This document shows, in pieces, positions 28,877-53,041 of a stretch of 64,000 nt of DNA. The notes under the pieces are model-generated. The model was not told the origin of the DNA and did no database searches. It saw only the letters and a program-made list of their open reading frames with translations. Made by a program: the position numbers and the translations under genes. Numbering within the stretch: position 1 is the stretch's first letter; every line of letters starts with the position of its first letter. Source of the stretch: Roseobacter sp. SK209-2-6 (GTDB lineage Bacteria; Pseudomonadota; Alphaproteobacteria; Rhodobacterales; Rhodobacteraceae); assembly GCF_000169455.1 (NCBI RefSeq), contig NZ_AAYC01000001.1, forward strand, positions 62,001 through 126,000, read 5' to 3'.

Positions 28877-29460
28877 TGGGGATCTCTCGGGACCAGCCGC
28901 ACGGGATCCTGGACGGGGGAGAGGTCTCTGCCTGTGATTTCGACGACAAACAACCGATTGCGTTTGATCCGAAAAGGAGCCGGTCCGTCAAAGTTCCAGC
29001 CATAGGCCTTTGCAAGGATCATGCGCATGATTCCGATATGACAAACCGCAAGGCTGTCACGCGAGAGACTGTACAGCCAGGGTTCAATACGTGCCCAGAC
29101 CTCTGCCGGGCTTTCTCCTTCGGGGGGGCGGTAGTCCCAGCCCCAGTCTTCGATGTCACGAAATCCATTTTCCGGATCGGCCTTGAGTTCAAGGCCCTTG
29201 CAGCCTTCCCACTCTCCCCAGAACATTTCGGTAAGTTCCGGTGCGCATTGCGGTGTCTTATGAGTGACCAGACGCGCGGTTTCCACCGCACGACAGAGTG
29301 GACTGGACCAGAGGTCAGCCCCCAGCCACTCCTTTGGTAGTTCATAGCCCGCCAGTTCTTCTCGCGCCTCTTGATCCAGCGGTATATCGCTGCGGCCCTG
29401 GATCTGGCCAGCGCGGTTCCAGGCAGTATGTCCATGGCGCAAAAGGGCAAGACGGATCAA
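28873..29460 (-). CDS. Histidine phosphatase-family protein
   Basis: A 195-residue phosphoglycerate-mutase-like phosphatase. The catalytic RHG motif (ALLRHGHTAWNRAGQIQG) lies at the N-terminus, the conserved SSPLCRAVETA follows, and the second His is in AVCHIGIMR. I chose TTG 29460, which overlaps the upstream stop as TTGA and has GAGGGAG upstream; a longer frame would overlap the previous gene heavily. Inside a glycosyltransferase cluster it may dephosphorylate a sugar phosphate or glycan intermediate. Confidence 0.85.
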   Translation of the reverse strand: MIRLALLRHGHTAWNRAGQIQGRSDIPLDQEAREELAGYELPKEWLGADLWSSPLCRAVETARLVTHKTPQCAPELTEMFWGEWEGCKGLELKADPENGFRDIEDWGWDYRPPEGESPAEVWARIEPWLYSLSRDSLAVCHIGIMRMILAKAYGWNFDGPAPFRIKRNRLFVVEITGRDLSPVQDPVRLVPRDPQ

Positions 29461-30569
29461 TGGCTTTTCTCCCTCAAGACTGGGGTGACGGCGGACCAGA
29501 ACGCAGCTGATCCACTTGTGGCAAGGTGATTTTGCGCGATGCATCTGCGCGCCTTTTGTCCCAAGGTATGGCGCAGATCTGCTTCGCGAAGGAGCTGCCC
29601 AACCCGTTGTGCAATGGCGAGACTGCCTTCTTCGGGCCTGGGGTATTGGCCCTCGGGGCTTAGGACATCTCGCAGCCCCGGTCGATCCTGCGCAACGACG
29701 GGCAGCCCATGAGATTGTGCTTCTAGATAGACCATACCAAAGGCCTCGTTGACACCGGGCCAAAGGAAGAGGCTGGCCTGTTCATAGTGCCGTGCCAGCT
29801 CCTCACGAGCAAGCTGCCCCAAGAAGCGTATACGCGTGCCAAAGGGCGCCATCAGAGCCTCAACCGCAGCACGTGCAGGCCCATCGCCTGCAATATCGAG
29901 ACGCCAGTCTTGATTGAGGTGCCCCAGGGTGTCTGCAATCAGTTGATAAGAGGCCAGTTTGTCCCCTTCGCGCATCATCCCGGCGGTCAGCATTGGTCCC
30001 AGCCCGGTAGAGGCTTTGGGCAATGAGGCAAAGGGGAGGAAAGGCGGAAGAGGTGCAAGTATTTGATCCGCGAAGCGGTCACGTTCCAGAGCCTCTTTGT
30101 CCTGGTTGGTCAGATAGAAAATCACATCTGCAGCATCTGCGGCTGCATGCGCTTTGGCTGCAAACTCTGACCAGGGACCAATTAGGCGCTTTTGGGCGCG
30201 GGTGCTTTCAATTTGAACATAGGGAATGTTGCGCGCGCGCGCCACGCGGGGGCCAATTAGATCAGGGGCTTTGTAGTAGTTGTGATAGGTAACCCAAAGG
30301 TCAAGTGGCGGCATCTCTTGCAATAGGCGGTCCACCTCAAAATCTGACTTTGCGGCGAGGTCCTGCTGGCGGCTTGTACGTCCTTCTTTGTCAAAGATAC
30401 GGAGCTGACTGACCAGCTCCACGGACAAGGGCGCGCGCTGTCCCGGAGGGCCGCCTGCAAGCAAGGCCATCAGATTGCGTGCCATTTCTCGATCCCCTGA
30501 TGGGACAGGGTGCTTTGGGGATTTCATCGGCGCGTAAAACGCGATGCCTGACAGGTCGATCTCCGTCAT
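29457..30569 (-). CDS. Glycosyltransferase family 4
   Basis: A 370-residue GT-B glycosyltransferase. The C-terminal half has the GT4 pattern (LDIAGDGPARAAVEALM, RIRFLGQL, then PGVNEAFGMVYLEAQSHGLPVVA with the E-x7-E nucleotide-sugar site). The N-terminal part includes SGIAFYAPMKSPKHPVPSGDREMARNLM. It lies in the middle of the leftward cluster, overlapping the previous gene by four bases and the phosphatase gene by four. Confidence 0.88.
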   Translation of the reverse strand: MTEIDLSGIAFYAPMKSPKHPVPSGDREMARNLMALLAGGPPGQRAPLSVELVSQLRIFDKEGRTSRQQDLAAKSDFEVDRLLQEMPPLDLWVTYHNYYKAPDLIGPRVARARNIPYVQIESTRAQKRLIGPWSEFAAKAHAAADAADVIFYLTNQDKEALERDRFADQILAPLPPFLPFASLPKASTGLGPMLTAGMMREGDKLASYQLIADTLGHLNQDWRLDIAGDGPARAAVEALMAPFGTRIRFLGQLAREELARHYEQASLFLWPGVNEAFGMVYLEAQSHGLPVVAQDRPGLRDVLSPEGQYPRPEEGSLAIAQRVGQLLREADLRHTLGQKARRCIAQNHLATSGSAAFWSAVTPVLREKSH

Positions 30570-31810
30570 GATCCCTGCAGCATTGCATCCAGACGCTCTT
30601 TGAGCTGGGCAATGCCGGGATCCATGCCAAAATCCTGGCGCAGGCGGTTGAGGGCTGCTTCGGCCATCCTGGAGGCCTGATCCGGGCTCCGGGCCAGAGA
30701 CACCAGCGCCTGGGCAAGATCCTCGGGGGCATCCGGGCTGAGCACCCCATGGGTGCCGTTGGTGATAAACTCTGGGATTGCGGATACGGGTGTCGAAAGG
30801 ATCGGGAGGCGCTGGGATGCGGCTTCCATCAGAACATTGGGAAGCCCGTCGCGATCGCCGTCACTGGCAATGCGGCTCGGTAAAACAAATAGATCGGAAG
30901 CGCGCATGGCCTCGATCACTTCGGGTTGGTCGCAGGCACCGCGCCAAGTGATCCGATCCGCGATGCCAGCATCATCTGCCAGATCCTGCAGCAGGTCTTT
31001 CAACCCGCCTCCGCCGATATGAACCCAATGCCAGTCCAGGTCTTTGGGGAGTAACGCAAGGGCCGCAATGAGGCGGTCAAAACCTTTTTTCTCTACCAAA
31101 CGCCCAACGGACATCAGCTGCAGCGGATCGCTTGCCCTGCGCCAAAGGCGTTGTGGCGGCTCCGGGAAACGGCTGAGGTCAAGTCCGTGGTAGATCAAAT
31201 CGATGCGCGCAGGGTCATCCGACATCTCTTGCAGGTGTTTTGCCCCAAAACCGGTACAGGTCGCGCCGAAATGGGCGCCGTGGTGTTGGCTGGACAGCTT
31301 TTCCGAAATCTCCCAATCTGGAGAAGTCCAGATATCCTTGGCATGGGCGGAAAAGCTCCAAGGAAGCCCACGCATGATCGCTGCATATCTGGCGACCGAA
31401 GAAGGTGTGTGCAGGAAATGGGCATAAAGACCCAGAACCTCAGCGGGCATTTCTGCGGCTAACACGCAGGCCTGACCAAAGCGGCGGATGCGATTGCGAC
31501 TGGGGTCGCGGCGCAGATCCTGACGCCAGACACGATAGGCTTCGTCATAGCCCGGTAGAGCCTGCGCCGTTTTCCGGGCCTCCCAAACACGGGATGGCTC
31601 TTGATGCAGATATTCCGGGAGGTAGCGGATCTGGGCCTGTAGCCGGTCATGTAGGGGATGACGCTTTACATCGGTGGGATGGCGCAGGGACCAGATTTCA
31701 AAATCCAGGCCAGCTGCTTCCAGCGCGACGAGTTCCTGTGCGATGAAGGTTTCGGAAAGCCTTGGCCACCCCTTCACCAGAACGGCAAGGGTGGGGGTCT
31801 GATGTGTCAT
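30566..31810 (-). CDS. Glycosyltransferase family 4 (second)
   Basis: A 414-residue GT4-type enzyme. Recognisable elements are VLVKGWPRLSETFIAQELVAL at the N-terminus (shown here as the usual SETFI start), LMSVGRLVEKKGFDRLI, and FVLPSRIASDGDRDGLPNVL followed by MEAASQRLPILSTPV, the E-x7-E region. The SETFI start is common in colanic-acid and exopolysaccharide transferases. ATGA overlaps tie it to both neighbours. Confidence 0.88.
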   Translation of the reverse strand: MTHQTPTLAVLVKGWPRLSETFIAQELVALEAAGLDFEIWSLRHPTDVKRHPLHDRLQAQIRYLPEYLHQEPSRVWEARKTAQALPGYDEAYRVWRQDLRRDPSRNRIRRFGQACVLAAEMPAEVLGLYAHFLHTPSSVARYAAIMRGLPWSFSAHAKDIWTSPDWEISEKLSSQHHGAHFGATCTGFGAKHLQEMSDDPARIDLIYHGLDLSRFPEPPQRLWRRASDPLQLMSVGRLVEKKGFDRLIAALALLPKDLDWHWVHIGGGGLKDLLQDLADDAGIADRITWRGACDQPEVIEAMRASDLFVLPSRIASDGDRDGLPNVLMEAASQRLPILSTPVSAIPEFITNGTHGVLSPDAPEDLAQALVSLARSPDQASRMAEAALNRLRQDFGMDPGIAQLKERLDAMLQGS

Positions 31811-33033
31811 TCCGCTGCCTTTCGCGGTGTTTCATGCAAAATAGCGGCAACCCGTTCCGTAACATAGTCCAGCCCATCAAGCAGCCCCTCGGAGAAGGCG
31901 GCAGAGGGGGAGGGTTGATCTGCAAGCTTTCGGATAGCACGGATCATTGCCTCTGGCGTCCAGCCATCGCGGTTCTCGTCGAGCATTGCCACCAGACCCA
32001 GCTCCTCGGCCCGGCTTGCACGGATCCATTGTTCGAGCCGTGGTGTAGTGCGCGGGACGATGACCGCTGGCCGATCAAAGGAAAGCACTTCGCAGAAGGT
32101 ATTGTAACCGCCCATGCTGACGACCCCCTGAGCGGCCGAGAATAATGTCTCGATACGGGATTCAAAACCAACGGCGCTCACCCGGCCGTTCAGCGCCTCG
32201 ACCCTCGCCTCAAAGGCCTCGCGGGTTTCACCGGAGAGGAATGGCCCATAGACTAGGATGGCGCGGGGCGCCAGCTGTGGGTCTCTCTCATAGGCGGAGA
32301 GAACGAGGTCGACCATCATTGCGCCATCGCCACCGCCACCGGGGGTGATCAGCACATAGGGTTGCTCAGGTGGCTCATCCAACCGTCCAAGATCGCGCCT
32401 AAGATAGCCTGTCCAGTGCATGCGCGCCTGAACATCCGCACTTAGATCCAAACCCTGGGTGGGATCATAAATCGAGCGAAGCCCATAAACCCAGATTTCG
32501 TCGTAAAAGCGTTCAGTGGCGGCAATGGCTTCTTTGCGCTCCCATTCCGCAGCCAGGACCTCGGGCTCATCCAATACGTCGCGAAGCCCAAGAACCAGCT
32601 TGCAGCGCCTTTGGTTGGCAAGTTGCTCCAAAGCGGGCAACAGCTCTCCGCGAAAGCCCGTTGGTTCCTTGTCCACGATCAGCACATCGGGATCATATTG
32701 CTCCGCCATGGAGAGGATCAGGCCGGATCTGAGGTCGGTGGTTTCTTCGATGCTCATACCCATGGTACGTGAAGCATAGCTGCCGTCGGAACGCTTGATG
32801 ACGCCTGGAAGGCGCATGTGATCGACACGTGTGGGAAAGTCAAAACGCCCAGCAACCGGTGAGCCTGTCAATATCAGGGCCGAGGCAGTGGGATCCGCCG
32901 CAGTGATTGCCCCAGCAAGCGCGCGCGAGCGCCTCAGATGCCCAAGGCCAAAGGTATCATGGCTGTATAGCATGACCCTGGGACCGCGCGATTTAGCGTC
33001 CCTTTCGGAGTAAGTACTTGGGGTCGTGATCAT
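31807..33033 (-). CDS. GT28-type glycosyltransferase, first gene of the glycan cluster
   Basis: A 408-residue protein with YSHDTFGLGHLRRSRALAGA at the N-terminus and VLITPGGGGDGAMMVDLVL plus SMGGYNTFCEVLSFDRPAVI in the C-terminal half, matching GT28/MurG-type transferases. Its ATG 33033 faces a 264-base gap to the MscS gene, where the cluster promoter should lie. Coupled to the next gene by ATGA. The enzyme is cytoplasmic by sequence. The product of the pathway is unknown. Confidence 0.8.
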   Translation of the reverse strand: MITTPSTYSERDAKSRGPRVMLYSHDTFGLGHLRRSRALAGAITAADPTASALILTGSPVAGRFDFPTRVDHMRLPGVIKRSDGSYASRTMGMSIEETTDLRSGLILSMAEQYDPDVLIVDKEPTGFRGELLPALEQLANQRRCKLVLGLRDVLDEPEVLAAEWERKEAIAATERFYDEIWVYGLRSIYDPTQGLDLSADVQARMHWTGYLRRDLGRLDEPPEQPYVLITPGGGGDGAMMVDLVLSAYERDPQLAPRAILVYGPFLSGETREAFEARVEALNGRVSAVGFESRIETLFSAAQGVVSMGGYNTFCEVLSFDRPAVIVPRTTPRLEQWIRASRAEELGLVAMLDENRDGWTPEAMIRAIRKLADQPSPSAAFSEGLLDGLDYVTERVAAILHETPRKAAE

Positions 33034-35765: not shown

Positions 35766-37118
35766 TCAACTTCTCCAAGATGAGATTGACGATCCGCAAC
35801 ATTGCGCGGGAAGCGACCAGTGCATCTGGCATTGCTCAAGTTCCAGGGCTGGTTGTAGTCGTTGACCCGGTCCCCAGCTGCTGAATTCGGGCTCTGCACT
35901 GAAATCCGCCTCTGAGGCACTTGAAATCTCAGTGGTATCCTTAGTCCCAGAATTCTGAAGAGAGGCGAGGTGCTCTGCCGTTCTGGCGAGGGAGAGCTTT
36001 GCGCTTTGTGTTTGTCCGGTTTGCACCAAGTTGCGCAAGGAACAGAGCACTGCGGCAGCCATCAGATAACCTGTGGCATGATCCAAGGCCTGTACCGGTA
36101 GAGGTGTTGGTTCCGAAGCTTTGGCCCAGTTTCGACCTGCATCGGCAATTCCGCAACTCATCTGGACCAGGCTGTCAAAGCCACGCCTAGCTGCCCATGG
36201 TCCAGTCCAACCATAGGCATCAAGAGAGACATCAACGAGTTGTGGCGCAATCTGGCGACGGATCTCCGTCCCAAAGCCCAATCTCTCCAGGGCGTCGGGG
36301 CGATATCCGTGAACCAACACGTCAGCCTTGGCCGCAAGCTCTTTGAGGCGGGTCAGGCCAGCTTCGGTCTTCAAATCCAGAGAGGCCATATTTTTGCCCA
36401 GGGAAATGTCCTGGATCACTCCGGGTTCATCCCAACCGGGCGGATCAATGCGCAAGACCTCTGCGCCAAAGCCTGCGAGAGTGCGGGTTGCAATAGGCCC
36501 CGCCAGAACTCGGGTCAGATCCAAGACCCGGAGGCCATCCAATGGACGTTTGGGATCATGAAACAGACCGGCCCGGATCTTCCCCGCAAGGGCTTCCCCC
36601 CAGTGAATGAGCGGCTCCTTGGAAAGGGCCTGCCCCTGAGGATGGGCTTGCCATTCCGCACGGCTGCGCATCTTGGCGGAAACGCCCCCCTCCGAGGCAA
36701 TCGCGGTTTCCAGCACGTCCCCTTCCCAGGTGCGAACAGCTTGCTGGACTGCTTCTCGATCCTCTTGGCATTCGAGAACAGCCAGAGCCGCGGCGCGGTG
36801 GTGCGCAAGATTGGTGTGGAGCCGGATCCAGCCATCTTTGGTTTCATAGTTTCCGGCAATGGGGTCCCATAGGTCGGGCAGCTCCCATCCAATGGCGCGA
36901 AAGCTGTAGCCAAACCAGAGCGAGGCCAAGCGTTGGTCAACGGTGACCTCGGGACGCGTGTTGGCAAGGCCTGTGGCTTGCATCAACTGTGCCATCTGCT
37001 GGCCTACCGAGGCGAAACTGGCGTTGGCCAACTCGCTGACAGCGAATGCGCTGGGCAGAATTCCCGAACCGGTTACTCTGTAGTCCTTAGCCGTGGGGAG
37101 GTTTTGAAAAAGGGTCAT
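35766..37118 (-). CDS. Class III CoA-transferase, coupled to a peptide-type ABC importer
   Basis: A 450-residue CaiB/BaiF-type protein. The CoA-transferase motif LDGLRVLDLTRVLAGPIATR starts only near residue 195, followed by FGAEVLRIDPPGWDE and WAARRGFDSLVQMSCGIAD with the probable catalytic Asp in GFD. The first 190 residues are a second, diverged half. Its ATG overlaps the permease stop as ATGA, so it is translated with the ABC importer. This suggests that the imported compound or a breakdown product is a carboxylic acid activated to a CoA thioester. A perfect 14-base palindrome (35664-35677) lies beyond its stop. Confidence 0.82.
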   Translation of the reverse strand: MTLFQNLPTAKDYRVTGSGILPSAFAVSELANASFASVGQQMAQLMQATGLANTRPEVTVDQRLASLWFGYSFRAIGWELPDLWDPIAGNYETKDGWIRLHTNLAHHRAAALAVLECQEDREAVQQAVRTWEGDVLETAIASEGGVSAKMRSRAEWQAHPQGQALSKEPLIHWGEALAGKIRAGLFHDPKRPLDGLRVLDLTRVLAGPIATRTLAGFGAEVLRIDPPGWDEPGVIQDISLGKNMASLDLKTEAGLTRLKELAAKADVLVHGYRPDALERLGFGTEIRRQIAPQLVDVSLDAYGWTGPWAARRGFDSLVQMSCGIADAGRNWAKASEPTPLPVQALDHATGYLMAAAVLCSLRNLVQTGQTQSAKLSLARTAEHLASLQNSGTKDTTEISSASEADFSAEPEFSSWGPGQRLQPALELEQCQMHWSLPAQCCGSSISSWRS

Positions 37119-38269
37119 TGCTGATAAGGATCCAAACTGTCCCGTAAGCCGTCGCCCAGGAAATTGAAAGCCAGGACAATAATGATAATCGGCAGCATCG
37201 GGATCGCGGTCCAGGGATAGATCTCGATATTGGCGAGGTTCTGCGCGTCGTTCAGCATTACTCCCCAGCTAACAGCGGGAGCGCGCAGGCCAAGACCCAA
37301 GAAGGAGAGAGCCGTTTCGCCGAGGATCATTGCCGGAATAGAAAGAGTGGCTGAGGCGATCAGGTGGCTCATGAAATTGGGTAGCAGGTGTTTTCGAATT
37401 ACCCGTCCCGAAGAGGCCCCCATCATTTCCGCTGCACGCACATATTCTTCTTCACGAAGGGACAGGAACTTGGCCCTGACAGAGCGCGCAAGACCTGGCC
37501 AGTCCAAAATCCCCAGGATCACTGAGATGATGAAGAACACTGCCACCGGTGACCAGTTTGAGGGCACCGCGGCAGAAAGGGCCAGCCAAAGCGGCAGTTC
37601 CGGCAAGGAGCGCAGGATTTCGATCACCCTATTGATGACCCAATCGATGCGCCCACCAAAATAGCCTGCGATGGACCCGAAGAAGATGCCCAGTACAAAA
37701 GAAACCGAGATCCCAATAAGACCCACAGTAAGGGAAAGCTGGGCGCCATAGAGAATGCGACTGAACACATCTCTGCCCAATCGGTCAGAGCCCCAAAGAA
37801 AGAGGGTCGACCCTTCGGGCGCGCAAAAAAGATGGGTATCCGAAGGGACGAGACCAAAGAGATTATACTCTTTCCCCTCGCAGAAAAACTCGAGCTTCAT
37901 TGGCGTCTGGTAATCTGGCTTAAAGACCCATTGAAAGGTCTCCAGATCCGCTTCTGAAGTCATCGGATAGACAAAGGGGCCGATGAACTTGCCCTCATGG
38001 AACAAGTTTATGGATTGCGGCGGTGAATAAAGATGCTCGCTGTGCCTCTGATTGGGGCCATAGGGGGCAATGAAACCGACAATCGGCAGCAACAGGTAGC
38101 AAAACAGCAGGAAGGCACCAGAGACAAGACCCAGTTTGTGGGTCTTGAATTTGCGCCAGATCAGAACCCAGTTCGGGGCGTCCAGATCTTTGCGCTCTAG
38201 TTCTTGCAGAGAGGCGCCTGGGTCATAGGGCGCATCGTCGACATAGCGGCCGTCAGGAAGCTGGGTCAT
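37115..38269 (-). CDS. ABC transporter permease, OppC/YejE type
   Basis: A 384-residue permease of the dipeptide/oligopeptide class. After a soluble N-terminus of about 40 residues comes one span (LVSGAFLLFCYLLLPIVGFI), a large periplasmic loop of about 120 residues, and a five-span core with the EAA motif region (VRAAEMMGASSGRVIRKHLLPN). The large loop is typical of YejE-like microcin C/peptide importers. It overlaps the partner permease by four bases and the CoA-transferase by four. Confidence 0.9.
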   Translation of the reverse strand: MTQLPDGRYVDDAPYDPGASLQELERKDLDAPNWVLIWRKFKTHKLGLVSGAFLLFCYLLLPIVGFIAPYGPNQRHSEHLYSPPQSINLFHEGKFIGPFVYPMTSEADLETFQWVFKPDYQTPMKLEFFCEGKEYNLFGLVPSDTHLFCAPEGSTLFLWGSDRLGRDVFSRILYGAQLSLTVGLIGISVSFVLGIFFGSIAGYFGGRIDWVINRVIEILRSLPELPLWLALSAAVPSNWSPVAVFFIISVILGILDWPGLARSVRAKFLSLREEEYVRAAEMMGASSGRVIRKHLLPNFMSHLIASATLSIPAMILGETALSFLGLGLRAPAVSWGVMLNDAQNLANIEIYPWTAIPMLPIIIIVLAFNFLGDGLRDSLDPYQQ

Positions 38270-39294
38270 GCATCTCGCCCTTCATACCGAATGCGTGGAT
38301 CCAATAGAACCAAAAGCACATCAGAGATCATTGTCCCGATCAAAGTCAGGAGCGCCACGAACATCAGAACAAAACCTGACAAGAATAGATCCTGGGTTTT
38401 CAGGGCGGTCAGCAGCGTTGGCCCAATAGTTTGCAGTCCTAGCACCACGGATACCAGGACCGAGCCCGAGATCATTGAAGGCAGCAGATTGCCAATATCT
38501 GCGACAAAAGGATTGAAGGCGACCCTGAGAGGGTATTTCGCCAACATGCGTGAGGGGGACATGCCCTTGGCCACTGCGGTTTCAACATAGGGTTTCCCGA
38601 GTTCATCCAGCATGTTTGCACGCAACCGCTGCATCATGGCAGAGGCACCCGATGTGCCTATCACAAAGGTGGGGACAATCAGGTGGATCAGGATCGACTT
38701 CACCTTGTCCCAGGACATCGGCTCCCCTTCGAAGGCAGGATCCATTAGCCCACCAATGGGCAAATCGAACCAACGATGGCCGTAGTAAAACAGGATCAGT
38801 GCAAGCAGGAAGTTGGGCGTTGCCAGACCCAGATAACCGACAAAGGCAGAGGTATAGTCTACCCAACTGCGGGCTCGGGCCGCGGCCAGCACACCAAGGG
38901 GCAGGGCGACCATATAGACAAAAAGAACCGCTGCGAGGTTGACCAGAACAGTTAACCACAGCGTGTCGCCCACGATCTCAGCCACGGGCAGGTCGAATTC
39001 AAAAGACCAACCAAAATTCCCCTGGATCAAACCCGAAAACCCATGTGGACCAGGCAGAAAACCGACCCAAATCAGATACTGTTGCCACAGGGGTTTATCC
39101 AAAGCGTATTCCGACCTCAGGAATTCAGCCTTGGCAACACCTGCGGATTGCCCGCTGGCGCGTAGCTCAGCGATTTGGTTGGACAGATAATCTCCTGGAG
39201 GCAGGTTGATGATGACAAAGACCAGGATCGAAACCACCCAGAGTGTGAGCAGCATGGTTCCAAAGCGGTAGATGGCGTAGCGCAGAATTTCCAT
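38266..39294 (-). CDS. ABC transporter permease, OppB/YejB type
   Basis: A 342-residue permease with the N-terminal RFGTMLLTLWVVSILVFVII span, a periplasmic segment with WVGFLPGPHGFSGLIQGNFG, and a core with the EAA region (LGKPYVETAVAKGMSPSRML). It pairs with the OppC-type permease. Its ATG overlaps the binding-protein stop as TGATG. Confidence 0.9.
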   Translation of the reverse strand: MEILRYAIYRFGTMLLTLWVVSILVFVIINLPPGDYLSNQIAELRASGQSAGVAKAEFLRSEYALDKPLWQQYLIWVGFLPGPHGFSGLIQGNFGWSFEFDLPVAEIVGDTLWLTVLVNLAAVLFVYMVALPLGVLAAARARSWVDYTSAFVGYLGLATPNFLLALILFYYGHRWFDLPIGGLMDPAFEGEPMSWDKVKSILIHLIVPTFVIGTSGASAMMQRLRANMLDELGKPYVETAVAKGMSPSRMLAKYPLRVAFNPFVADIGNLLPSMISGSVLVSVVLGLQTIGPTLLTALKTQDLFLSGFVLMFVALLTLIGTMISDVLLVLLDPRIRYEGRDA

Positions 39295-41213
39295 CAGCCC
39301 TCACCATCAGTGAAGAAGAACTCATCTGGACGATAGATGCCAAAATGCGCGCCGGGCTCCCAGGCCCAGATCCCCTTGGTCGGTACATTCTGCAAGCGAT
39401 TTGAAACCACGACCGGCTGCGGCGCTCCGGCAACGATGCCGATGCCATAAACCTCATTGGCATGAATTTTTAGCATTTCATGCCAGGCGCTTTCGCGCTC
39501 AGCCTCGTTTGTTGCATTCTCCCAGTCATGCATCAATTCCATCAGGCGTTTGGCGGGTACCAGGTCAGGGGCTTCGCCGGCCTCGCCGCCTGTTTGATAG
39601 TGCTGCCCCCATTTTGGCCAGGCCAGAAAAACCTGATCCGTAGGGGCCAGATAGGCCGGGGAAGTATAGCTTTGAGGAAGACCATTGTCCCAGCCAAACC
39701 AGACCGAGGCCATGGTGGTTCCGGAAAAGACGCGGTTGCGCAGGATGTCGCGATCAAGTGGGCGCATCACCAGTTTCACACCGACATCGCGCCAGTCATC
39801 AGTGATGATCTGCAGAGCGTTTTCAACTTCTTGACGTTCGCCAGCGGTTTCCACAATGAGTTCCATTAGGCGACCATCCGGGAGGTAGCGGATCCCGTAG
39901 TGATCCTTCTCGTGGAGGCCTGCTTCATCCAGCAGCTGATTTGCCAGTTCTGGATCAAATGACGCCCAGGCTTTGCGCATCTCGGGGTCGAAGAAGGGGC
40001 TTTGTTCCAGCACGGTCATCGCGCCAGGTTTTGCCAGCTTGAAGAAGAGAGCTCTGTTGATGGCAGCGCGGTTGATGGAAAGTGAGAGCGCGCGGCGGAC
40101 CCGAACATCCCGCAGTATTGTCCGCCAAACCGGGTCGTTCACATTGAGGTTCGGGTAGATGGCAATTTGCGAAGCGGCTCCGGTTCCCCAGAGATAGGTC
40201 TTATAATCGGCCCCGTCATTCTCTCCCTTGCGCAGAATTGGGATGTCGCGAAAGCCAAGGCCACGGGCTTGCAGGTCGCTCTCACCGGCGTTTGTTTTGG
40301 CTGCCACAAGCCCGGCTGAGACGATTTCCATTTCGACAGTATCGATATAGGGAAGCTGAACCCCACGGGTGTCTACCCTGTGGTAATAGGGGTTGCGGAC
40401 AAACTGGTGGCGGATTTTCTTGCCAGCGCTTGCGTTGATCCAGGGCTGAAGGGTGGGTAGTTCGTGATTATCGAACTTGTACATATTGTCGTATTTATTG
40501 TGCAGGGCGGCCCAGCTTTTCACCCGTGCATAGTCGACCTCTTCAGCGAGCGCGGTCGCATCGGCATAGTTTGCATGGAATTGTTTTAGATAGTTCGAAG
40601 GGCGGTAAATGAACGGAGGCCGCGCTTGTGCAAGGTTTTGCAAGAACTGTGCATTTGGGGTTTTCCATTCGTAGATGACAGTTTGTTCATCTGGAAAACT
40701 GACCTTGGGCAAGGTGCCATCGACGCGAAGGAAATCAGGCGGGCCGGCCGGGCTTAACGCTGGGTTTCCCGCAACATCTTCCCACCAGTAGCGAAAATCG
40801 TCTGACGTGAATGGATCACCGTTGGACCAACGATGACCGGGGCGCAGTTTAAGAGTAAAGCGCCGATTGCCCTCATTCTCGTAGCCCAACAGGATATCGG
40901 GTTGCAGTTTATATTCCCGGTCATACCCAACCAAACGCGCATAGCCATAGACAACCATCTGGCGGATGTCCTTGGAACGCGTCACCATGGTGTTCAGGGT
41001 GCCTCCCTGCTGCCCAAAGGCTCGGCCTTCCTGGGCAAGATCCACGAAAAGAGGCGTTTCAGGCACACGCTCTTCCACGGGGGGTAAGTTGCCGGATGAG
41101 ACTTCTGACTGCCAGAAAGGGCTTTCGTTCAAACGCGGAGAGGCAAAGGCAGCGTTCACGGAGACAAATAGGGTTGCCGCAAGAGGTAGGGCGGTTTTGA
41201 GGGTTTTAAGCAT
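39294..41213 (-). CDS. Extracellular solute-binding protein, family 5 (peptide type)
   Basis: A 639-residue periplasmic binding protein. The signal peptide covers residues 1 to about 24 (ending NAAFA). The family 5 core (RFTLKLRPGHRWSNGDPFTSDDFRYWWED) and DVRVRRALSLSINRAAINRALF are diagnostic. I chose ATG 41213, which puts the signal peptide at the N-terminus and overlaps the ATPase gene by eight bases. The size (over 600) is larger than dipeptide-binding proteins and closer to YejA-like or oligosaccharide/peptide-conjugate binders. The ligand is unknown. Confidence 0.9.
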   Translation of the reverse strand: MLKTLKTALPLAATLFVSVNAAFASPRLNESPFWQSEVSSGNLPPVEERVPETPLFVDLAQEGRAFGQQGGTLNTMVTRSKDIRQMVVYGYARLVGYDREYKLQPDILLGYENEGNRRFTLKLRPGHRWSNGDPFTSDDFRYWWEDVAGNPALSPAGPPDFLRVDGTLPKVSFPDEQTVIYEWKTPNAQFLQNLAQARPPFIYRPSNYLKQFHANYADATALAEEVDYARVKSWAALHNKYDNMYKFDNHELPTLQPWINASAGKKIRHQFVRNPYYHRVDTRGVQLPYIDTVEMEIVSAGLVAAKTNAGESDLQARGLGFRDIPILRKGENDGADYKTYLWGTGAASQIAIYPNLNVNDPVWRTILRDVRVRRALSLSINRAAINRALFFKLAKPGAMTVLEQSPFFDPEMRKAWASFDPELANQLLDEAGLHEKDHYGIRYLPDGRLMELIVETAGERQEVENALQIITDDWRDVGVKLVMRPLDRDILRNRVFSGTTMASVWFGWDNGLPQSYTSPAYLAPTDQVFLAWPKWGQHYQTGGEAGEAPDLVPAKRLMELMHDWENATNEAERESAWHEMLKIHANEVYGIGIVAGAPQPVVVSNRLQNVPTKGIWAWEPGAHFGIYRPDEFFFTDGEG

Positions 41214-42981
41214 GGCAACGTACCTTATGTCCGGGCTCAACCGGGATCAGCGGTGGGGCCTCTTGACCTGAGAACCTGAAGTCCTCTGGCCAGCTTTCGG
41301 GGCTTCCGGCTCCCTGCGCCACAAGCTTTAGGTTGATTGGGCGATGGATATTGGGTTCCGGTTGGGCTGCGATAAGGGCCTTGGTATAGGGGTGCTGAGG
41401 GTTGTGAAACAGGGCTTCGGGCGGGGCTTGTTCCACCACCAGACCACGCCGCATGACGGCAACCTCATCAGCGATGCGGGCGACAACCGCCAGATCATGG
41501 CTGATGAAAAGATAAGAGAGGTTTCTCTCGTCTCTGATTTCTTCCAGCAGGCAGAGGATTTGCTCTTGCACGGAAACATCCAGGGCCGAAGTCGGTTCGT
41601 CGCAAACGATGAGTGAAGGATCCAGCATCAAGGCACGCGCAATAGAGAGGCGCTGTCTCTGTCCACCAGAAAAGGCATGCGGATAGCGCAAAAGCATATC
41701 CCGCCCCAGTCCAACCATCTCCAACATGTCAGCAGCTTTGGCCCGCCGCTCCTCCTGACGGCCGATGCGGTGAATCTCCAGCGGCTCAATCATCGTGTCG
41801 AGAATGCGCATCCGAGGGCTCAGCGAGGAATAGGGATCCTGAAACACCATCTGCGCTTCCCGCTGGAACGCTGTACGCGCAGCCCGGTTCATTTCATGGA
41901 CCTTGGTGGCGGGGCCATCAGTTTGCGGACGAAAAATCACTTCGCCACCCGGATCAGGGGCTTCGGCGCCGAGCGCGATGCGTGCGGCGGTCGTTTTGCC
42001 CGATCCGCTCTCACCTACAATCGCCAGGGTTTTACCCCGTGGTAGGCGCAGATTGATATCCCTACAGGCGGAGATCAGACTTGGAGCGCGCCAGCCTTTG
42101 CCTGCACGCATACTATAGGTCTTGGAGACGGATTTAAGCTCTAGGATCAGGTCTTCCGAGGCAGGAGCTGGTGGAGTCGCTGCGGTTGCTTCAGGAACCT
42201 TGGGTGCCGCATCTATTAGGGCTTGTGTATAGGGGTGTGCAGGGGCGGACAGCAGAGGTTCAGCAGCACCTGCTTCCATTACACGGCCCTTGTGCATCAC
42301 GACCACCTGTTCGGCCATATTCGCCACAACACCCAGATCATGCGTGACCAAGATCATTGCCATGCCGGTGTCGCGTTGCAGATCTTTCATCAGGCCCAGG
42401 ACCTGGGCCTGTGTTGTTACATCCAGTGCAGTTGTCGGTTCATCGGCAATCAGGAGTTTGGGTTTTGCAACCATTGCCATTGCGATCATCGCACGTTGGC
42501 GCATCCCGCCTGACAGCTCAAAAGGGTAGGAGCCATAAGTGCGCTCCGGATCCGGGAAGCCAACCCGCTCAAAGCACTCAAGCACTTCTTTCTTGGCTTC
42601 ACGTTCGCTTTTACGTCCGTGCAGCCAGAGAACTTCTGCCACCTGGTTGCCGATGCGATGCAAAGGGGAAAGAGAGCGCATCGGTTCCTGAAAAATCATC
42701 GAAATCTGATTGCCCCGCAGATCCCGCATCTTGCGTTCGCCGAGGGTCAAAAGATCAATCGCTCGATCCTTGCCATTCAGGGTGATGGAGCCAGAACGTA
42801 TTTGGGCGGCTTTTGGCAAAATGCGCAGAACACTTCGGCAGGTTATGGTCTTGCCAGAACCACTTTCACCTACCAGGGCCAGGGTCTGACCGGCGGCCAC
42901 ATCGAAGCTGACCGACTGAACGACCGGATCTTCTTCCCCAAAACCGATGCTTAGGTTTTCGACGGACAGCAATGGCGTCAT
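41206..42981 (-). CDS. Dual-domain ABC transporter ATPase, YejF type
   Basis: A 591-residue protein holding two full ABC ATPase domains. The first has Walker A GESGSGKTITC, signature LSGGMRQRAMIAMAM and Walker B LLIADEPTTALD; the second has Walker A GESGSGKTTAA, signature FSGGQRQRLSIARAL and Walker B LIVCDEPTSALD. Such fused DppDF-like ATPases serve peptide-type importers. I chose ATG 42981 (MTPLLSVENLSIGF); a longer reading to 43086 adds 35 residues of low-complexity basic sequence. First gene of the operon. Confidence 0.93.
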   Translation of the reverse strand: MTPLLSVENLSIGFGEEDPVVQSVSFDVAAGQTLALVGESGSGKTITCRSVLRILPKAAQIRSGSITLNGKDRAIDLLTLGERKMRDLRGNQISMIFQEPMRSLSPLHRIGNQVAEVLWLHGRKSEREAKKEVLECFERVGFPDPERTYGSYPFELSGGMRQRAMIAMAMVAKPKLLIADEPTTALDVTTQAQVLGLMKDLQRDTGMAMILVTHDLGVVANMAEQVVVMHKGRVMEAGAAEPLLSAPAHPYTQALIDAAPKVPEATAATPPAPASEDLILELKSVSKTYSMRAGKGWRAPSLISACRDINLRLPRGKTLAIVGESGSGKTTAARIALGAEAPDPGGEVIFRPQTDGPATKVHEMNRAARTAFQREAQMVFQDPYSSLSPRMRILDTMIEPLEIHRIGRQEERRAKAADMLEMVGLGRDMLLRYPHAFSGGQRQRLSIARALMLDPSLIVCDEPTSALDVSVQEQILCLLEEIRDERNLSYLFISHDLAVVARIADEVAVMRRGLVVEQAPPEALFHNPQHPYTKALIAAQPEPNIHRPINLKLVAQGAGSPESWPEDFRFSGQEAPPLIPVEPGHKVRCHA

Positions 42982-43284
42982 ACAGCGCGTCCCGCTGGCA
43001 TGACGCCCCGATCTGGTTGTCCCGGCATTCCTTGTCTTCCCCGTTATTTTTTGCTCACCTTCGCGTGCAGAGGCAAAGGGAGTCAAACCTCATTTGCCAA
43101 AGCTGACCAAAGCTGAAGAAAAATTGATCCAACGGCACCATGGGGCCACATTCCACTGCCTCAATGCTTGTGTTAGTTGCGCAGTATTGCAGGTTTCCCG
43201 AGAAATCAGGAAACTGCGGGGAGAGCACGCCTCCTGCAAGCAAGTTGAGACGCAACCAAACCAGGCTGAACAAGGAAAAAGAAT
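42982..43284. other. Gap between the ABC operon and the methyltransferase gene
   Basis: About 300 bases between two divergent starts, expected to hold promoters for both. Short open frames exist on both strands (for example 43094-43288 on the plus strand), but none has a convincing ribosome binding site or a recognisable family. I see no strong palindrome. Confidence 0.5.
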
Positions 43285-43794
43285 ATGACCGCTCCTGAGC
43301 AAAGCACGCGCTTGGATCTATTTATCAATAGGATGGTCTCGCAGCGCGCCTGCCTGGATTTTGCGATTGCGCAAACCGCTTCGATGGCTGGGCCTGTATT
43401 CGAACTGGGCCTTGGCAATGGGCGCACCTACCATCATATGCGTGAGCGTATTTCAGGCCGCGACATTTTTGTTTTTGAACGGGCGGTGGCCTCTCACCCC
43501 GATAGTCGCCCCGCAGAGGAGCTGACCATTCTGGGAGATGTGCGTGAGACATTGCCAGCAGCTTTGACCCGATTTGGCGATGGCGCCAGCCTAATCCATG
43601 CCGATCTGGGTGGACACAATCGGGCCAAGAATGACGAATTTGCGCGGATGGTTTCGCCGCTGGTCGAGCCCCTCCTGGTGGTTGGGGGGCTTATGGTCTC
43701 CTCTGATCGGATGTATTTCGAGGCACTGGAAGAGCTTCCTCTGCCAGCAGATGCGGTTGAGGGGCGCTGCTTCATCTATCGTCGCAACGCCTGA
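43285..43794 (+). CDS. Small class I SAM-dependent methyltransferase (paralogue)
   Basis: A 169-residue protein with SAM motif PVFELGLGNGRTYHHMRER and following acidic strand (IFVFERAV). It shares the LGLGNGRTY motif, size and overall layout with the methyltransferase at 26508-26984. An AAGGAAAAAG-like ribosome binding site lies just before ATG 43285. Unlike its paralogue it is not in a glycan cluster; a GST gene follows 100 bases on. Substrate unknown. Confidence 0.78.
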   Translation: MTAPEQSTRLDLFINRMVSQRACLDFAIAQTASMAGPVFELGLGNGRTYHHMRERISGRDIFVFERAVASHPDSRPAEELTILGDVRETLPAALTRFGDGASLIHADLGGHNRAKNDEFARMVSPLVEPLLVVGGLMVSSDRMYFEALEELPLPADAVEGRCFIYRRNA

Positions 43795-49443: not shown

Positions 49444-49836
49444 TTACATGGCGACACATTTGACCCATGCCGCGGTCATCGCGATATAGGTCAATTGATG
49501 CAGGCACTGATCCGTGCCCATGGCGCGCCAGAAAACGGCTTGCTGAGGCGTCAGTTCCTTTTTCTCGGAATAATGCGCCTTGCCGTAGTCGATGTGAAAA
49601 TGCACCACCCATTCCACGAGGCATACGATCAGTGTGAAAACAACTGGCGCACCCATGATCACAAAAACCAGGATCGAGCCAAGGCAATGCACCCCAGCGT
49701 GCTGTGCCCGGCCAGCATGCAAATAGGACCCGCGCCCCGAAAGCATTTTTGTGGTCTGCAGGAAAAAGTCGGCAAAGAGGTGTTTGATCTGCAAAAGGCA
49801 GAGCAATAGCAAAACGGATCCGACAAGTTCTGGCAA
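49444..49836 (-). CDS. DUF3307-type small membrane protein
   Basis: A protein of about 130 residues with three to four hydrophobic segments. The first (VGSVLLLLCLLQIKHLFADFFLQ, ends at residue 30 or so) carries the conserved H-x-x-x-D/F pattern of the DUF3307 family, followed by HAGVHCLGSILVFVIM and a HFHIDYGK motif. His residues inside membrane segments hint at metal or quinone binding, but no function is established. I chose TTG 49836, which has AGGGG six bases upstream; TTG 49854 is an alternative. It is divergent from the ABC/cNMP gene. Confidence 0.75.
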   Translation of the reverse strand: MPELVGSVLLLLCLLQIKHLFADFFLQTTKMLSGRGSYLHAGRAQHAGVHCLGSILVFVIMGAPVVFTLIVCLVEWVVHFHIDYGKAHYSEKKELTPQQAVFWRAMGTDQCLHQLTYIAMTAAWVKCVAM

Positions 49837-50044
49837 AATATTCCCCTGCGACAATCTAGCCTGCTGGAACCATACGTATTTTTAGCGGGCTGGCAAATAC
49901 TCCGTTTGCGACTTTCCGCAACGGGACAGCACGAAATTGCGATGGGATTTTTGGCCGCGACCATTGCCTGTCTTGGGCAAACCGCGCTAGGCATGGGTAA
50001 TCTTTTGCAAAAGCAAAACCCGGAGCAGTCCCATAGAACCTTCT

Positions 50045-53041
50045 TTGTTCCGTTTCATATGGAAGTATTCCAAGCGTGACCAAATCCTTCTGCTGTTGGT
50101 CACCGCCTGTCTCTTCCCTCTTTTGTATCTGACGCTTGAGTTGCCCAAGCGGATCATCAACGATGCCATCGGCGCGCAGAGTGATCAGATCGATGTGCTG
50201 GGGTATAGTTTTGCCCAGCTGGATTACTTGTGGATCTTGTGCGGAGGCTTCCTGCTAGCGGTCCTGTGCCACGGGTTGCTGAAGATGCGGATCAACACCA
50301 TGAAGGGTGTGTTGGCCGAGCGCATGCTTCGCCGTTTTCGCTATAAGTTGATCGCGAGGGTCCTACGGTTCCCGCAGCCCTATTTTGAACGCACCAGCCA
50401 GGGTGAGCTTGTTTCGATGATCACATCGGAATCCGAACCCATGGGCGGACTGATGGGGGATGCGGTCAGCCAGCCAGTCTTGCAGGCTGGTCAGATGCTG
50501 ACGATCCTCTATTTCCTCTTTGCGCAGAGCGTTTGGTTTGGGCTGGCGGCGGTTGCATTGATTCCGCTGCAGGGCTGGCTGATCCCGATGCTGCAGCGGC
50601 GCATCAACCTGTTGAACAAGAAGCGGATCAAACAGGTGCGCTCCCTCGCGTCCGAGATCGGAGAGAGCGCTGCAGGGGCCTCTACTCTGCGCATCAATGG
50701 CGGCTGGCGCTACCGGATGGCTGCGATTACGGATCGGTTGGGAAGGCTGTACGAGATCCGTTTTGAGATCTACCAGAAAAAGTTCTTCATGAAGTTTCTC
50801 AACAACTTCATTACTCAACTCACGCCGTTCTTCTTCTATGCGGTTGGCGGCTATTTGGTCCTGGAAGGGAAAGTGTCTCTGGGTGCCCTTGTTGCGGCCC
50901 TGGCAGCCTACAAGGATTTGGCCTCCCCCTGGAAAGAGCTTCTGGCCTATTACAATCAGACCCAGGACATGTCCCTGCGTTGGGAAGTCATACTTGAACG
51001 CTTTGCGCCTGCCGGGATGGTGCGTGAAGAGCTCATGACCGGGGAGCCCGAAGTGATTGATCGGTTGCAGGGGGATATCTCTCTGGAGCGGGTCAATGTT
51101 CGGGATGCAGATGGGAATCTGGTGCTGGAAGATCTGAATGCCAAGCTGCCCCAAGGGCAGGTGATCGGTATTGCTGCGCCTTCTGAAGAAGACCGGCATG
51201 CTCTGGCAGAATTGCTGACACGGGAAGTGCTTCCATCCGCGGGGCAATTGTCGATCGCTGGACGTGACATGCGGGAATTGCATCAGGCGGTTCTGGCGCT
51301 GCGTATCGGCCATGTGACCTCCAGACCAATCCTGTTTCAGGGATCATTCGGTGACAATGTCCTAATGCCCGTTCGGCACCGCCCAAAGGGAACAGCCCGC
51401 AATCAGCTGCGCTATGAGGCTGCGCTAAAGGCCGGCAATAGCCCGGATCCCTTTGATGCGCCCTGGCTGGATCCCAAACTGGCGGGTTTTGCCAGTGAAG
51501 CAGAGTTGCGTGATTGGTGGGTGCAATTGCTGAGTGGTATCGGCACTGGCAGTGCCCTGTTCCAGCGTGGGATGGAGCAGGTTTTTGACGAAGGGATCCA
51601 CCCCAAGTTGGCCCAGTGTCTGGTTGATATCCGTCCGCAAATCCAGACAGCCCTCAGGTCAGAGGGGCTGGAAAGCCAAGTCCATGCCTTTGAGCGTGAG
51701 AGTTACAACCCGGCGCTGCCTGTGGCGGAGAACCTATTGTTTGCGACGCTTTGCGAACCCATCAGTGTTGAGGCGCTGCAGCGACACGAAGACTTCCTGA
51801 ACCGCTTGAAAGAGTTGAAACTGGTCGATGATCTGGTCACTCTGACCCAGGATGTCGTTGATATTCTACGGCAAATCTTTGGCATTGATGGTACTGACCA
51901 TCCGCTCTTTCGCAAGCTTGGCTTGGATGCCAAAGCCTATGAAACAGCGCTTGCGCTGGTGGACCGGACCAAGATCAAAGGACCTGAATCGCTGGAGCGC
52001 GATGAACTTGCGCAGCTGATGATTGTTCCTTTCAGTATTTCCGCCGAGCAGATCGGTCCGGCCTTCACGGATGAAATGAAGGAACGGATCCTGGCTTTGC
52101 GTGCAAGTCATTCGGATGAGTTGATGGGGACCCTGGCCGGCACATTTGAACGCCTGGATGAAGCGAAGTTTGCGCCTGGACTTACGGTTCTGGAAAATGC
52201 GCTCTTCGGTAAGATCTCCGATAGTGCCGGGGCGCGTGGGGATGATCTGCGGCGCCTGATTTCTGATGTCTTGGTTAAGAATGGCGCGCGCGACATGGTG
52301 GTGGAACTGATCTTTGATCTGCCAATCTCCTTGGGCGGGCAGGGGTTGCCTGCCAGCTATGCTGAACCTTTGGCCTTTGCCCGTGCCACAGTGAAGCGGC
52401 CGGATGTGCTGATCCTTGATCAGGCCTTGGTCAGCTATGATCTGGAGACCCGTGTAACGGTGCATAAAAACCTGCGCCGTCTCTTGCCGGATACGACGTT
52501 GATCTATCTTGGCGCCGGATTTGAACGCCCTGATGTGTTTGATGTCTACTATGAAATGCGACAGGGGCGCTTGGTAAGTGACGATCCACAGCAGGAAATC
52601 GCAGAAGACAGTGCCGCCAGTCAGGATCTGGCCCGCAAACTGCGTGCGCTTGAACAGACGGAGCTTTTCTCTGGGTTGAACAGACGCCAGTTGCGCCTGC
52701 TCGCTTTTGGTGCGCGCTGGTATCACGCCGAGAAGGGTGAGGTGGTGTTCCAAAAGGACGATGTGGCCAGTGATGGTGTCTATATGATCATCGATGGTGA
52801 GGCTGGCCTCTTCCTGCCACAGGATAGCAGTGAAGATCGTTTGATCACGCGGGTTGGCGCTGGGCGGTTGGTCGGAGAGCTTGGTCTCATCCGGCAAGAG
52901 ACCCGCGCGCTAAGCATGATTGCCCAGAGCGAACTGACCTGCCTGCGAATTGGTGAAGAAGAATTCTTGGCGGTGGTTGAGAACGACGCCAATACTGCCT
53001 TTAAGCTGCTTCAGGTCGTCGCGGGCTACGTCGGGAACTAG
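50045..53041 (+). CDS. ABC-exporter-like protein with degenerate ATPase and C-terminal cyclic-nucleotide-binding domain
   Basis: A 998-residue protein. Residues 1-310 form an ABC exporter membrane domain. The nucleotide-binding domain (about 345-850) is degenerate: the Walker A site reads GIAAPSEEDRHA (375-386) without the Lys, the Q-loop Gln is replaced by Ser426, Walker B is VLILDQ with Gln793 for the catalytic Glu, and the H-loop His is absent. A LSGGQ-like SLGGQ remains at 762-766. An insert of about 270 residues (441-710) splits the domain. Residues 873-998 form a cyclic-nucleotide-binding domain with GELGLIRQETRALS. It probably cannot hydrolyse ATP; a sensor or regulated scramblase role is inference. 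The start is TTG 50045, without a strong ribosome binding site. Confidence 0.85.
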   Translation: MFRFIWKYSKRDQILLLLVTACLFPLLYLTLELPKRIINDAIGAQSDQIDVLGYSFAQLDYLWILCGGFLLAVLCHGLLKMRINTMKGVLAERMLRRFRYKLIARVLRFPQPYFERTSQGELVSMITSESEPMGGLMGDAVSQPVLQAGQMLTILYFLFAQSVWFGLAAVALIPLQGWLIPMLQRRINLLNKKRIKQVRSLASEIGESAAGASTLRINGGWRYRMAAITDRLGRLYEIRFEIYQKKFFMKFLNNFITQLTPFFFYAVGGYLVLEGKVSLGALVAALAAYKDLASPWKELLAYYNQTQDMSLRWEVILERFAPAGMVREELMTGEPEVIDRLQGDISLERVNVRDADGNLVLEDLNAKLPQGQVIGIAAPSEEDRHALAELLTREVLPSAGQLSIAGRDMRELHQAVLALRIGHVTSRPILFQGSFGDNVLMPVRHRPKGTARNQLRYEAALKAGNSPDPFDAPWLDPKLAGFASEAELRDWWVQLLSGIGTGSALFQRGMEQVFDEGIHPKLAQCLVDIRPQIQTALRSEGLESQVHAFERESYNPALPVAENLLFATLCEPISVEALQRHEDFLNRLKELKLVDDLVTLTQDVVDILRQIFGIDGTDHPLFRKLGLDAKAYETALALVDRTKIKGPESLERDELAQLMIVPFSISAEQIGPAFTDEMKERILALRASHSDELMGTLAGTFERLDEAKFAPGLTVLENALFGKISDSAGARGDDLRRLISDVLVKNGARDMVVELIFDLPISLGGQGLPASYAEPLAFARATVKRPDVLILDQALVSYDLETRVTVHKNLRRLLPDTTLIYLGAGFERPDVFDVYYEMRQGRLVSDDPQQEIAEDSAASQDLARKLRALEQTELFSGLNRRQLRLLAFGARWYHAEKGEVVFQKDDVASDGVYMIIDGEAGLFLPQDSSEDRLITRVGAGRLVGELGLIRQETRALSMIAQSELTCLRIGEEEFLAVVENDANTAFKLLQVVAGYVGN

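Follow-up and report, generated by a model that had tools for sequence, protein, structure and literature searches.

The window analysed here is a 64,000-nucleotide stretch of the Roseobacter sp. SK209-2-6 genome, and our subject is a 998-codon open reading frame (ORF) on its forward strand (50045–53041) that is a real, intact gene with no internal stop codon. The encoded protein, whose residues we count throughout from the TTG at 50045, consists of an exporter-type membrane domain, a nucleotide-binding domain (NBD) that a long stretch divides into two parts, and a cyclic-nucleotide-binding (cNMP) domain at the C terminus. Pfam matches ABC_membrane (PF00664) over residues 37–286 (E = 2.4e-20) and cNMP_binding (PF00027) over residues 895–981 (E = 1.9e-14; 53.8 bits against a cut-off of 27.5), with ABC_tran at residues 361–450 falling below its cut-off (21.4 versus 25 bits); the same scan found no peptidase domain and no DNA-binding domain. 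A preliminary description made from the letters alone had proposed an exporter membrane domain, a broken NBD and a C-terminal cNMP domain, an architecture that Pfam and the alignment of homologues both bear out. It had also suggested structure prediction of the NBD, and the model of NBD plus insert (residues 335–860; predicted local distance difference test (pLDDT) score 87.7) indeed resembles an exporter NBD, that of ComA (3vx4; TM-score (TMt) 0.75, root-mean-square deviation (rmsd) 7–9 Å). The whole-protein model (pLDDT 80.9) was matched by Foldseek to half-exporter chains of TmrAB, TM287/288 and the PCAT1 core, with TMt of 0.56–0.63 and an rmsd of 14–16 Å over the chain, and a viral fold search returned mostly ordinary ATP-binding cassette (ABC) transporters and one CRP-like protein as top matches, with unrelated proteins further down. 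According to these models, the NBD keeps the fold of an ABC ATPase despite the loss of its motifs.

This loss is extensive. In the alignment, APSEEDRH stands in place of the canonical exporter Walker A motif GxxGxGK[ST], the serine within VTSRP occupies the position of the Q-loop Gln, and LILDQA retains the Walker B Asp (Asp792) and has Gln793 where the catalytic Glu would be; IYLGAGF contains no H-loop His, and GQGLP lies near the place of the LSGGQ signature. Four ordinary exporters from the same genome are canonical at these alignment positions, one of them deviating in a single signature-motif column, and keep all six of the catalytic positions that we scored (Walker A Lys and Ser/Thr, Q-loop Gln, Walker B Asp and Glu, H-loop His). 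Every item in the preliminary list of residues, with the Walker A Lys, Q-loop Gln, catalytic Glu and H-loop His absent and GELGL and RALS present, was confirmed in this way.

Homologues of the protein (loci and genomes carry L and G numbers) are found across the Alphaproteobacteria. Among the nearest 60 genomes, the window's own included, 20 contain a relative at E 1e-30 or better, including all 11 others of the genus. A sample drawn from the class has members at E 1e-60 in 149 of 387 genomes, and one drawn from the phylum in 39 of 397, 38 of them in the same class and one a membrane-domain-only match; tblastn of plasmid records returned 330 records, mostly from Rhizobium (144) and Sinorhizobium (80). 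Members are nearly all alphaproteobacterial, with one, L106, coming from a metagenome-assembled genome titled Granulosicoccus. From 263 loci we obtained 248 near-full ORFs, 243 of them distinct once identical ones were removed; the 15 loci without one are L002–L005 (ordinary exporters), L017, L022, L023, L024, L053, L087, L249–L252 and L259. The 80 named loci are best matches and near relatives, and counts among fused members are not those of a random sample. A cNMP domain is tied to 237 of the 243 members, fused in 115 and encoded by a separate downstream gene in 122; in a tree of 106 members (quick method, midpoint root), fused and unfused proteins fall on opposite sides of one branch. As the orthologue clade we treat the 67 members at ≥53% identity, a line drawn after the list was seen. 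By these searches, the family appears to be old and widespread in Alphaproteobacteria, with motif loss as a family-wide trait. Open-licence literature, searched by titles and abstract starts, contained nothing among the matches listed on such a pseudo-exporter family or on AUH (AUA, AUC or AUU) starts in Alphaproteobacteria. Nine of the 11 other genus members possess a second full-length copy (48–50% identical, ATG start) and the other two fragments of one; the window's genome has a single family match besides ordinary exporters.

Across the family, 113 of the 115 fused members keep 0–2 of the six catalytic positions and the other two keep 4, while 127 of the 128 unfused members keep 0–4 and one, L185, keeps 5. 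L185 is the only one of the 243 with the Walker A Lys and Thr, the Walker B Asp and Glu and the H-loop His together. Homologues with intact motifs, which the preliminary description had named as counter-evidence, are thus confined to this protein, the remaining 242 lacking at least one of these five core residues. The alignment of homologues that it had also suggested shows the loss of the Walker A Lys to be fixed in the window's clade, with Arg in its place in 67/67 close orthologues. Single residues persist more often in unfused homologues (Walker A Lys 78/128, Glu 74/128, His 43/128), where the Walker A Ser/Thr position is mostly acidic (E 61, D 47 of 128) and the Walker B Asp is frequently replaced (N 69, S 31 of 128). 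The D-loop Asp is retained in 216/243 members. Since position 793 varies among the 67 close orthologues (S 12, Q 11, G 11, N 8, K 6, D 6, R 5, 8 others, never Glu), Gln793 is incidental: only the absence of Glu is fixed, and we rejected a meaningful natural Glu-to-Gln trap at this residue.

Together, the alignments give good support to the view that the window protein, taken by itself, is hardly a pump driven by ATP hydrolysis, and the preliminary inference that it is not an ATP-driven pump gains from the catalytic defect being fixed across the family. The pattern suggests that an active ancestor lost its motifs long ago, in steps and more than once; its NBD probably worked before it decayed, since L185 keeps its K-T-D-E-H set and unfused homologues often keep single residues.

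An insert of ~260 residues (446–705) splits the NBD between its Q-loop side and its signature side. Profile comparison with hhalign shows that the NBD contains one duplication of its helical lobe: about residues 546–605 repeat about 701–759 (98.0%, E = 1.4e-13, all members), and the same repeat is recovered within the unfused (97.6%) and the fused group (96.7%). Of 18 control pairs, 17 scored no better than E = 0.007; the remaining pair was designed to overlap. A further match joins the ends of repeat units one and two, at 84% (E = 7e-6) over all members and 90% in the unfused group, with nothing (3%) in the fused group; the first and third units are weakly related (46% in all, 73% in unfused and 14% in fused members), and up to three instances of a motif N-[LI]-[FLT]-[FY]-G are present in the distant members L019–L021. 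A triplication of the lobe unit is only suggested.

In unfused members, the separate cNMP gene lies downstream on the same strand in 122 of 128 cases, with a median ORF gap of 3 bases and 121 within 300; it was not found near the other six, one of whose loci is shorter than 5 kb. The phosphate-binding cassette is well kept: in the fused members, Gly944 and the phosphate-binding Arg954 are invariant (115/115 each) and position 945 is Glu in 76, and the window protein itself has a CRP-type cassette, GELGL and RALS with Glu945 and Arg954. Among the separate cNMP genes, 113/122 fit a strict cassette pattern, and five of the six misses shown have a cassette by eye. Class III cyclase domains score over cut-off at 5 places in the window's genome. 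Control of the window protein by a cyclic nucleotide is likely. The ligand should not be assumed to be cAMP, because the similar domain of HetC of Nostoc binds ppGpp in vitro and is needed in vivo (PMC10986499).

Purifying selection acts on every part of the protein, and most strongly on the membrane domain. Median ratios of non-synonymous to synonymous substitution (dN/dS) within the genus are 0.032 for the membrane domain, 0.082 for the first part of the NBD, 0.072 for the insert, 0.065 for the second NBD part and 0.052 for the cNMP domain (aligned codons of 10 genus copies, 45 pairs, leaving out L015 and the cut-off L017, and dropping saturated pairs, two for the insert and one for the cNMP domain). 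Columns at least 95% identical over the 243 homologues number 54/320 in the membrane domain, 2/101 in the first NBD part, 8/260 in the insert and 7/145 in the second NBD part. The membrane domain is thus the best conserved part by both measures and, as far as comparison of homologues can tell, the place where constraint sits. The absence of stops and the median values of 0.03–0.08 by domain agree with the preliminary statement that the gene is intact and under selection.

Relatives consisting of the membrane domain only occur in G005, G008, G011, G132, G395, G691 and G531 (ORFs of 382–437 codons, that of G531 at a contig edge), with more distant NBD-less relatives in G014 and G015; three within the genus are 41–43% identical to the window protein over the matched part. 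Six of the nine NBD-less loci (L278–L283) adjoin separate multicopper oxidase and cupredoxin genes, accompanied by CopB in 5/6 and a copper ATPase in 3/6, the neighbours of L281 being named by Pfam and the others by query match; the copper queries found no match at L284 (a 3.2 kb contig), L286 or L287. Because such relatives exist, the membrane domain can evidently function with no NBD attached to it, barring one that acts in trans.

The orthologues also point to a different start for the gene. Four codons upstream of the TTG chosen by the ORF caller, the codon at the 50033 site is ATA in 47, ATC in 16, ATT in 1 and ATG in 3 of the 67 orthologues; an AUH codon with a Shine-Dalgarno sequence is thus conserved in 64/67, and in 43/46 after thinning to <85% identity (ATA 28, ATC 14, ATT 1, ATG 3). 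The AT at +1/+2 is invariant (67/67) and none of the six preceding bases is more than 66% conserved; of 24 upstream bases scored, only the GG at −11/−10 exceeds 66%, and codon-type conservation begins at the AT. ATA accounts for only 3.9% of Ile codons in gene bodies, so its 47 of 64 ATH codons at this site are far from chance, with the proviso that the binomial value for the excess ignores the relatedness of the orthologues. Fused members outside the orthologue clade have ATG (44), GTG (3) or TTG (1) here, and unfused members ATG (97), GTG (9), TTG (7) or 15 other codons (CTC, CTG, TTC, CTA) that we take for misaligned N termini; ATH was found at the site in no member outside the orthologue clade.

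Initiation at TTG 50045 or at a later GTG or TTG, the conserved AT being chance or an upstream element, is very improbable. TTG is a usual minor start, the Ruegeria sp. TM1040 orthologue is annotated from a start downstream of the ATA site, and a canonical in-frame codon lies further upstream in 32/67 orthologues (it is absent in 35/67); against this, 63/67 orthologues have CTN, TTA, ATT or ATC where the window has TTG, the conservation around the AT and the excess of ATA are as described, and paralogues and distant relatives as a rule have ATG at the site. Moreover, from 30 codons before to 45 after it, the share of the 67 with a canonical start does not exceed 43% in any scored column. In control genes, the best canonical start column was shared by 65/65 (DUF3307), 33/33 (ArsR), 7/7 (oxidoreductase), 14/20 (Lrp), 27/27 scored of 29 (dehydrogenase) and 10/10 scored of 11 (PcaB-type neighbours), a control that picks the best of 45 columns and leans to canonical starts, the same kind of scan reaching 43% at best for our gene. 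We rejected TTG 50045 as the start on these grounds, and the true start is most likely, from this conservation, the ATA at 50033; the reading frame of the preliminary ORF is real and its start codon is not the one to which the orthologues point.

The record of the TM1040 orthologue (NC_008043.1, L264 8001–8040) is annotated from 39 nt inside the tblastn match and misses the AUH start; a THAF33 paralogue is annotated from ATG. In the window's genome, infC, the gene of initiation factor 3 (IF3), near 151312–151521 of G000:C18 (L290), most likely starts with ATA 8 nt after AAGGA (our own reading, unaligned); an ATT lies three codons before it, directly against AAGGA, and among canonical codons only a TTG 18 codons upstream is in frame. 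In Staphylococcus aureus, Ribo-Ret density was seen at the AUA starts of infC and ccpN, and infC, ccpN, cvfC1 and citZ likewise combine a conserved non-canonical start with a Shine-Dalgarno sequence (PMC13009471). Unlike the starts of those AUU/AUA genes, the start proposed here belongs to an alphaproteobacterial membrane protein and is deduced from conservation alone. The features of the locus are collected in Table 1.

Table 1. Features of the pseudo-exporter gene and of the upstream cluster in the window
Feature	Position	Strand	Basis and remarks
Proposed whole coding region	50033..53041	+	1002 aa + stop; preliminary ORF begins at 50045
Shine-Dalgarno-like GGAG	50022..50025	+	7 nt before ATA; G at −11 in 63/67 and at −10 in 59/67 orthologues
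ATA, most likely start codon	50033..50035	+	Orthologue alignment; ATG at the same place in paralogue clade
Exporter-type membrane domain, residues 1–320	50045..51004	+	Pfam ABC_membrane; exporter fold; column conservation
Degenerate NBD, first part, residues 345–445	51077..51379	+	Sub-cut-off Pfam ABC_tran; structure models
Lost Walker A, APSEEDRH, 378–385	51176..51199	+	Alignment
Q-loop region without Gln, VTSRP, 424–428	51314..51328	+	Alignment
Insert inside NBD, residues 446–705	51380..52159	+	Alignment; structure model
Helical-lobe segment, second copy, 547–604	51683..51856	+	hhalign against 702–759
Helical-lobe segment, normal place, 702–759	52148..52321	+	hhalign
Degenerate NBD, second part, residues 706–850	52160..52594	+	Structure models
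Walker B remnant LILDQA, 789–794	52409..52426	+	Alignment; Asp792 kept, Glu lost
H-loop region without His, IYLGAGF, 820–826	52502..52522	+	Alignment
cNMP-binding domain, residues 895–981	52727..52987	+	Pfam cNMP_binding
Phosphate-binding cassette GELGL...RALS, 944–957	52874..52915	+	Conservation in fused homologues
Glycan genes: Methyltransf_17, synteny-named polysaccharide deacetylase, GT28-C type, histidine phosphatase, two GT4-type, GT28-C type	26508..33033	−	Pfam; TM1040 order
Oligopeptide-type ABC importer: two permeases, SBP_bac_5, ATPase	37115..43086	−	Pfam
Second Methyltransf_17 gene	43285..43794	+	Pfam; homologue in flanks of 58/128 unfused members

A cluster of glycan and importer genes lies upstream of the gene, at 26.5–43.8 kb. 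Queries taken from the neighbours of the distant, unfused member L020 matched a GT28-type gene (31807–33033, E = 5.5e-119) and the Methyltransf_17 genes at 43285–43794 and 26508–26984; between these, Pfam names further GT28- and GT4-type genes, a histidine phosphatase, an MscS-type channel, a CoA-transferase and an oligopeptide-type importer. The 252-aa gene at 26985–27743 has no Pfam match and is called a polysaccharide deacetylase only in TM1040. The order pseudo-exporter, DUF3307, Lrp, ferredoxin oxidoreductase, TetR, importer, CoA-transferase, channel, glycosyltransferases, deacetylase, methyltransferase is common to TM1040, which has in addition a glutamine amidotransferase gene and for which no glutathione transferase and methyltransferase genes are listed beside TetR. 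Eight of nine further orthologue genomes have importer, CoA-transferase, channel, GT28 and GT4 genes within 20 kb upstream.

With the L020-neighbour queries, a GT28-type gene was found divergently upstream in 92/128 unfused members, and the two Methyltransf_17-type queries matched downstream in 62 and 14. With queries from the window, the short flanks of 107/128 unfused members contain at least one homologue of its glycan and importer genes (GT28 in 95, GT4 in 75 and 62, Methyltransf_17 in 58 and 13), as do those of 11/67 fused members in the orthologue clade versus 1/48 outside it. In Azospirillum the importer, GT28 and GT4 genes come after the family gene, and on S. meliloti pSymB importer and glycosyltransferase homologues, some in pieces, precede it. 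Judged from gene neighbourhoods, the link to a glycan pathway is strong for the orthologue clade and the unfused group, and the paralogue neighbourhoods checked give no sign of it. The divergent DUF3307 gene (49444–49854, reverse strand) adjoins 64/115 fused members; the start of its longest ORF is not conserved, and an ATG 36 codons in is common to 65/65 orthologues.

The explanation that best accommodates these results as a whole is a nucleotide-gated, ATP-independent pseudo-exporter, tied to a glycan pathway in the window's clade, and we put it at about an even chance. The NBD would keep the ABC fold but have lost normal ATP binding and hydrolysis; enlarged by a duplicate of its helical lobe, it would act as a relay between the CRP-type nucleotide-sensing domain and the membrane domain. 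The protein would most likely be a homodimer in which a bound cyclic nucleotide or related alarmone shifts the state of the membrane domain as ATP does in ordinary exporters. The gated, ATP-independent output would most likely serve an envelope or extracellular glycan made by the glycosyltransferase and methyltransferase cluster; candidate roles are to let a glycan or lipid-linked sugar through, to flip it, or to control assembly. In the Roseobacteraceae clade, the AUA, AUC or AUU start, of the infC kind, probably keeps synthesis of the protein low and controlled, possibly through IF3. A bolder version, to which we give clearly less credence, is that cNMP binding replaces ATP as the trigger of alternating access in a gated path or flippase for a glycan or lipid-linked sugar, with the dose held low by an IF3-tunable AUA/AUC start; in other relatives the sensor would be a protein of its own, next to the same glycosyltransferases, and the NBD-less cousins in copper clusters would use the membrane domain alone.

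Several observations weigh against the gated pseudo-exporter. Of 14 cluster queries, none matched within 20 kb on the upstream side of the G060 orthologue, within 20 kb on both sides of all three paralogue-clade copies checked, or within 20 kb of the fused members G296 and G361 (both sides) and G227 (one side). The NBD, with median dN/dS below 0.1, is conserved enough for a task of its own, and the Asp that replaces Glu in the cassette of 39/115 fused copies may change or lower ligand binding. L185 may be a still-active, ancestor-like form, and weak nucleotide binding is possible in the unfused relatives that keep the Walker A Lys. An NBD that senses ATP alongside the cNMP domain, still binding it or another nucleotide but not hydrolysing it, would fit this Lys and the retained D-loop Asp; we nevertheless regard it as unlikely, as Arg has replaced the Lys throughout the window's clade and the window protein has no glycine-rich loop (APSEEDR). 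Local decay or a pseudogene would explain why so many catalytic residues are gone at once, and was rejected as next to impossible: close orthologues share the loss, the ORF has no stops and dN/dS is low (0.03–0.08).

A somewhat doubtful but serious alternative dispenses with transport: the membrane domain would serve as the anchor or platform through which a nucleotide sensor reaches the GT28-type, GT4-type and Methyltransf_17 glycan enzymes at the membrane. The flanks of the unfused members, the same genes at 26.5–43.8 kb of the window and the glycosyltransferase genes near the S. meliloti and Azospirillum members all suit such a platform, yet the strongest conservation lies in the membrane domain, as expected for a working path, six NBD-less relatives sit in copper clusters, and the paralogues checked are away from the cluster. 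Half-dead heterodimeric exporters are also known, in which one of the two sites is degenerate, and the window protein could be the degenerate half of an exporter of the TAP1/2, TmrAB or TM287/288 type, with an ordinary half encoded elsewhere providing one ATP site. This is improbable, even with TmrAB and TM287/288 among the Foldseek matches and ordinary exporters in the window's genome, as the window protein has lost Walker A, Q-loop, signature, catalytic Glu and H-loop all together, and an exporter gene with intact Walker A lies in the flanks (mostly 1.5–6 kb) of only 3/115 fused and 1/128 unfused loci. A linked canonical partner half was thus not found in these flanks at 239/243 loci; an unlinked partner is possible.

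Exporters are taught as ATP machines. A large bacterial family with its strongest selection on the membrane domain, without the catalytic residues, tied to a nucleotide sensor and with NBD-less relatives would make driving or gating of the exporter fold by something other than ATP testable, and the conserved glycan cluster is a place to look for a phenotype. The conserved AUH start offers a clean case for the regulatory use of poor start codons outside infC, and indicates that at least one reference record (TM1040) has the start site wrongly annotated. The preliminary observation is real and general and its inference mostly sound, the sensor, scramblase and scaffold that it names being candidate roles, and the function being best read, from sequence comparison, as that of a gated exporter-fold protein. 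Its account of the domains and lost residues stood; to it we add the ~260-residue insert of the dead NBD with its internal duplication, the conserved AUH start and the upstream gene cluster, all of which it omitted.

Compared with known systems, the window protein shares the membrane-domain fold, NBD fold and domain order of MsbA-, TmrAB- and PCAT1-type exporters (type IV fold); it differs from them by the loss of Walker A, Q-loop, signature, catalytic Glu and H-loop, and by the added ~260-aa NBD insert and C-terminal cNMP domain. In TAP, TmrAB, TM287/288 and CFTR/SUR an ATP site is degenerate, and the exporter frame is used beyond plain pumping. These proteins keep one working site per dimer or bind ATP, unlike the pseudo-exporter family, where at least one of the five core residues is missing in 242/243 members. 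With CRP-type proteins the window protein has the Pfam domain and cassette in common, and it differs from them by membrane attachment and by the absence of a DNA-binding domain in the Pfam scan. HetC of Nostoc is likewise an ABC exporter joined to a cNMP-type domain; there (PMC10986499) that domain is N-terminal and accompanied by a C39 peptidase and an NBD with an essential catalytic Glu, none of which the window protein has.

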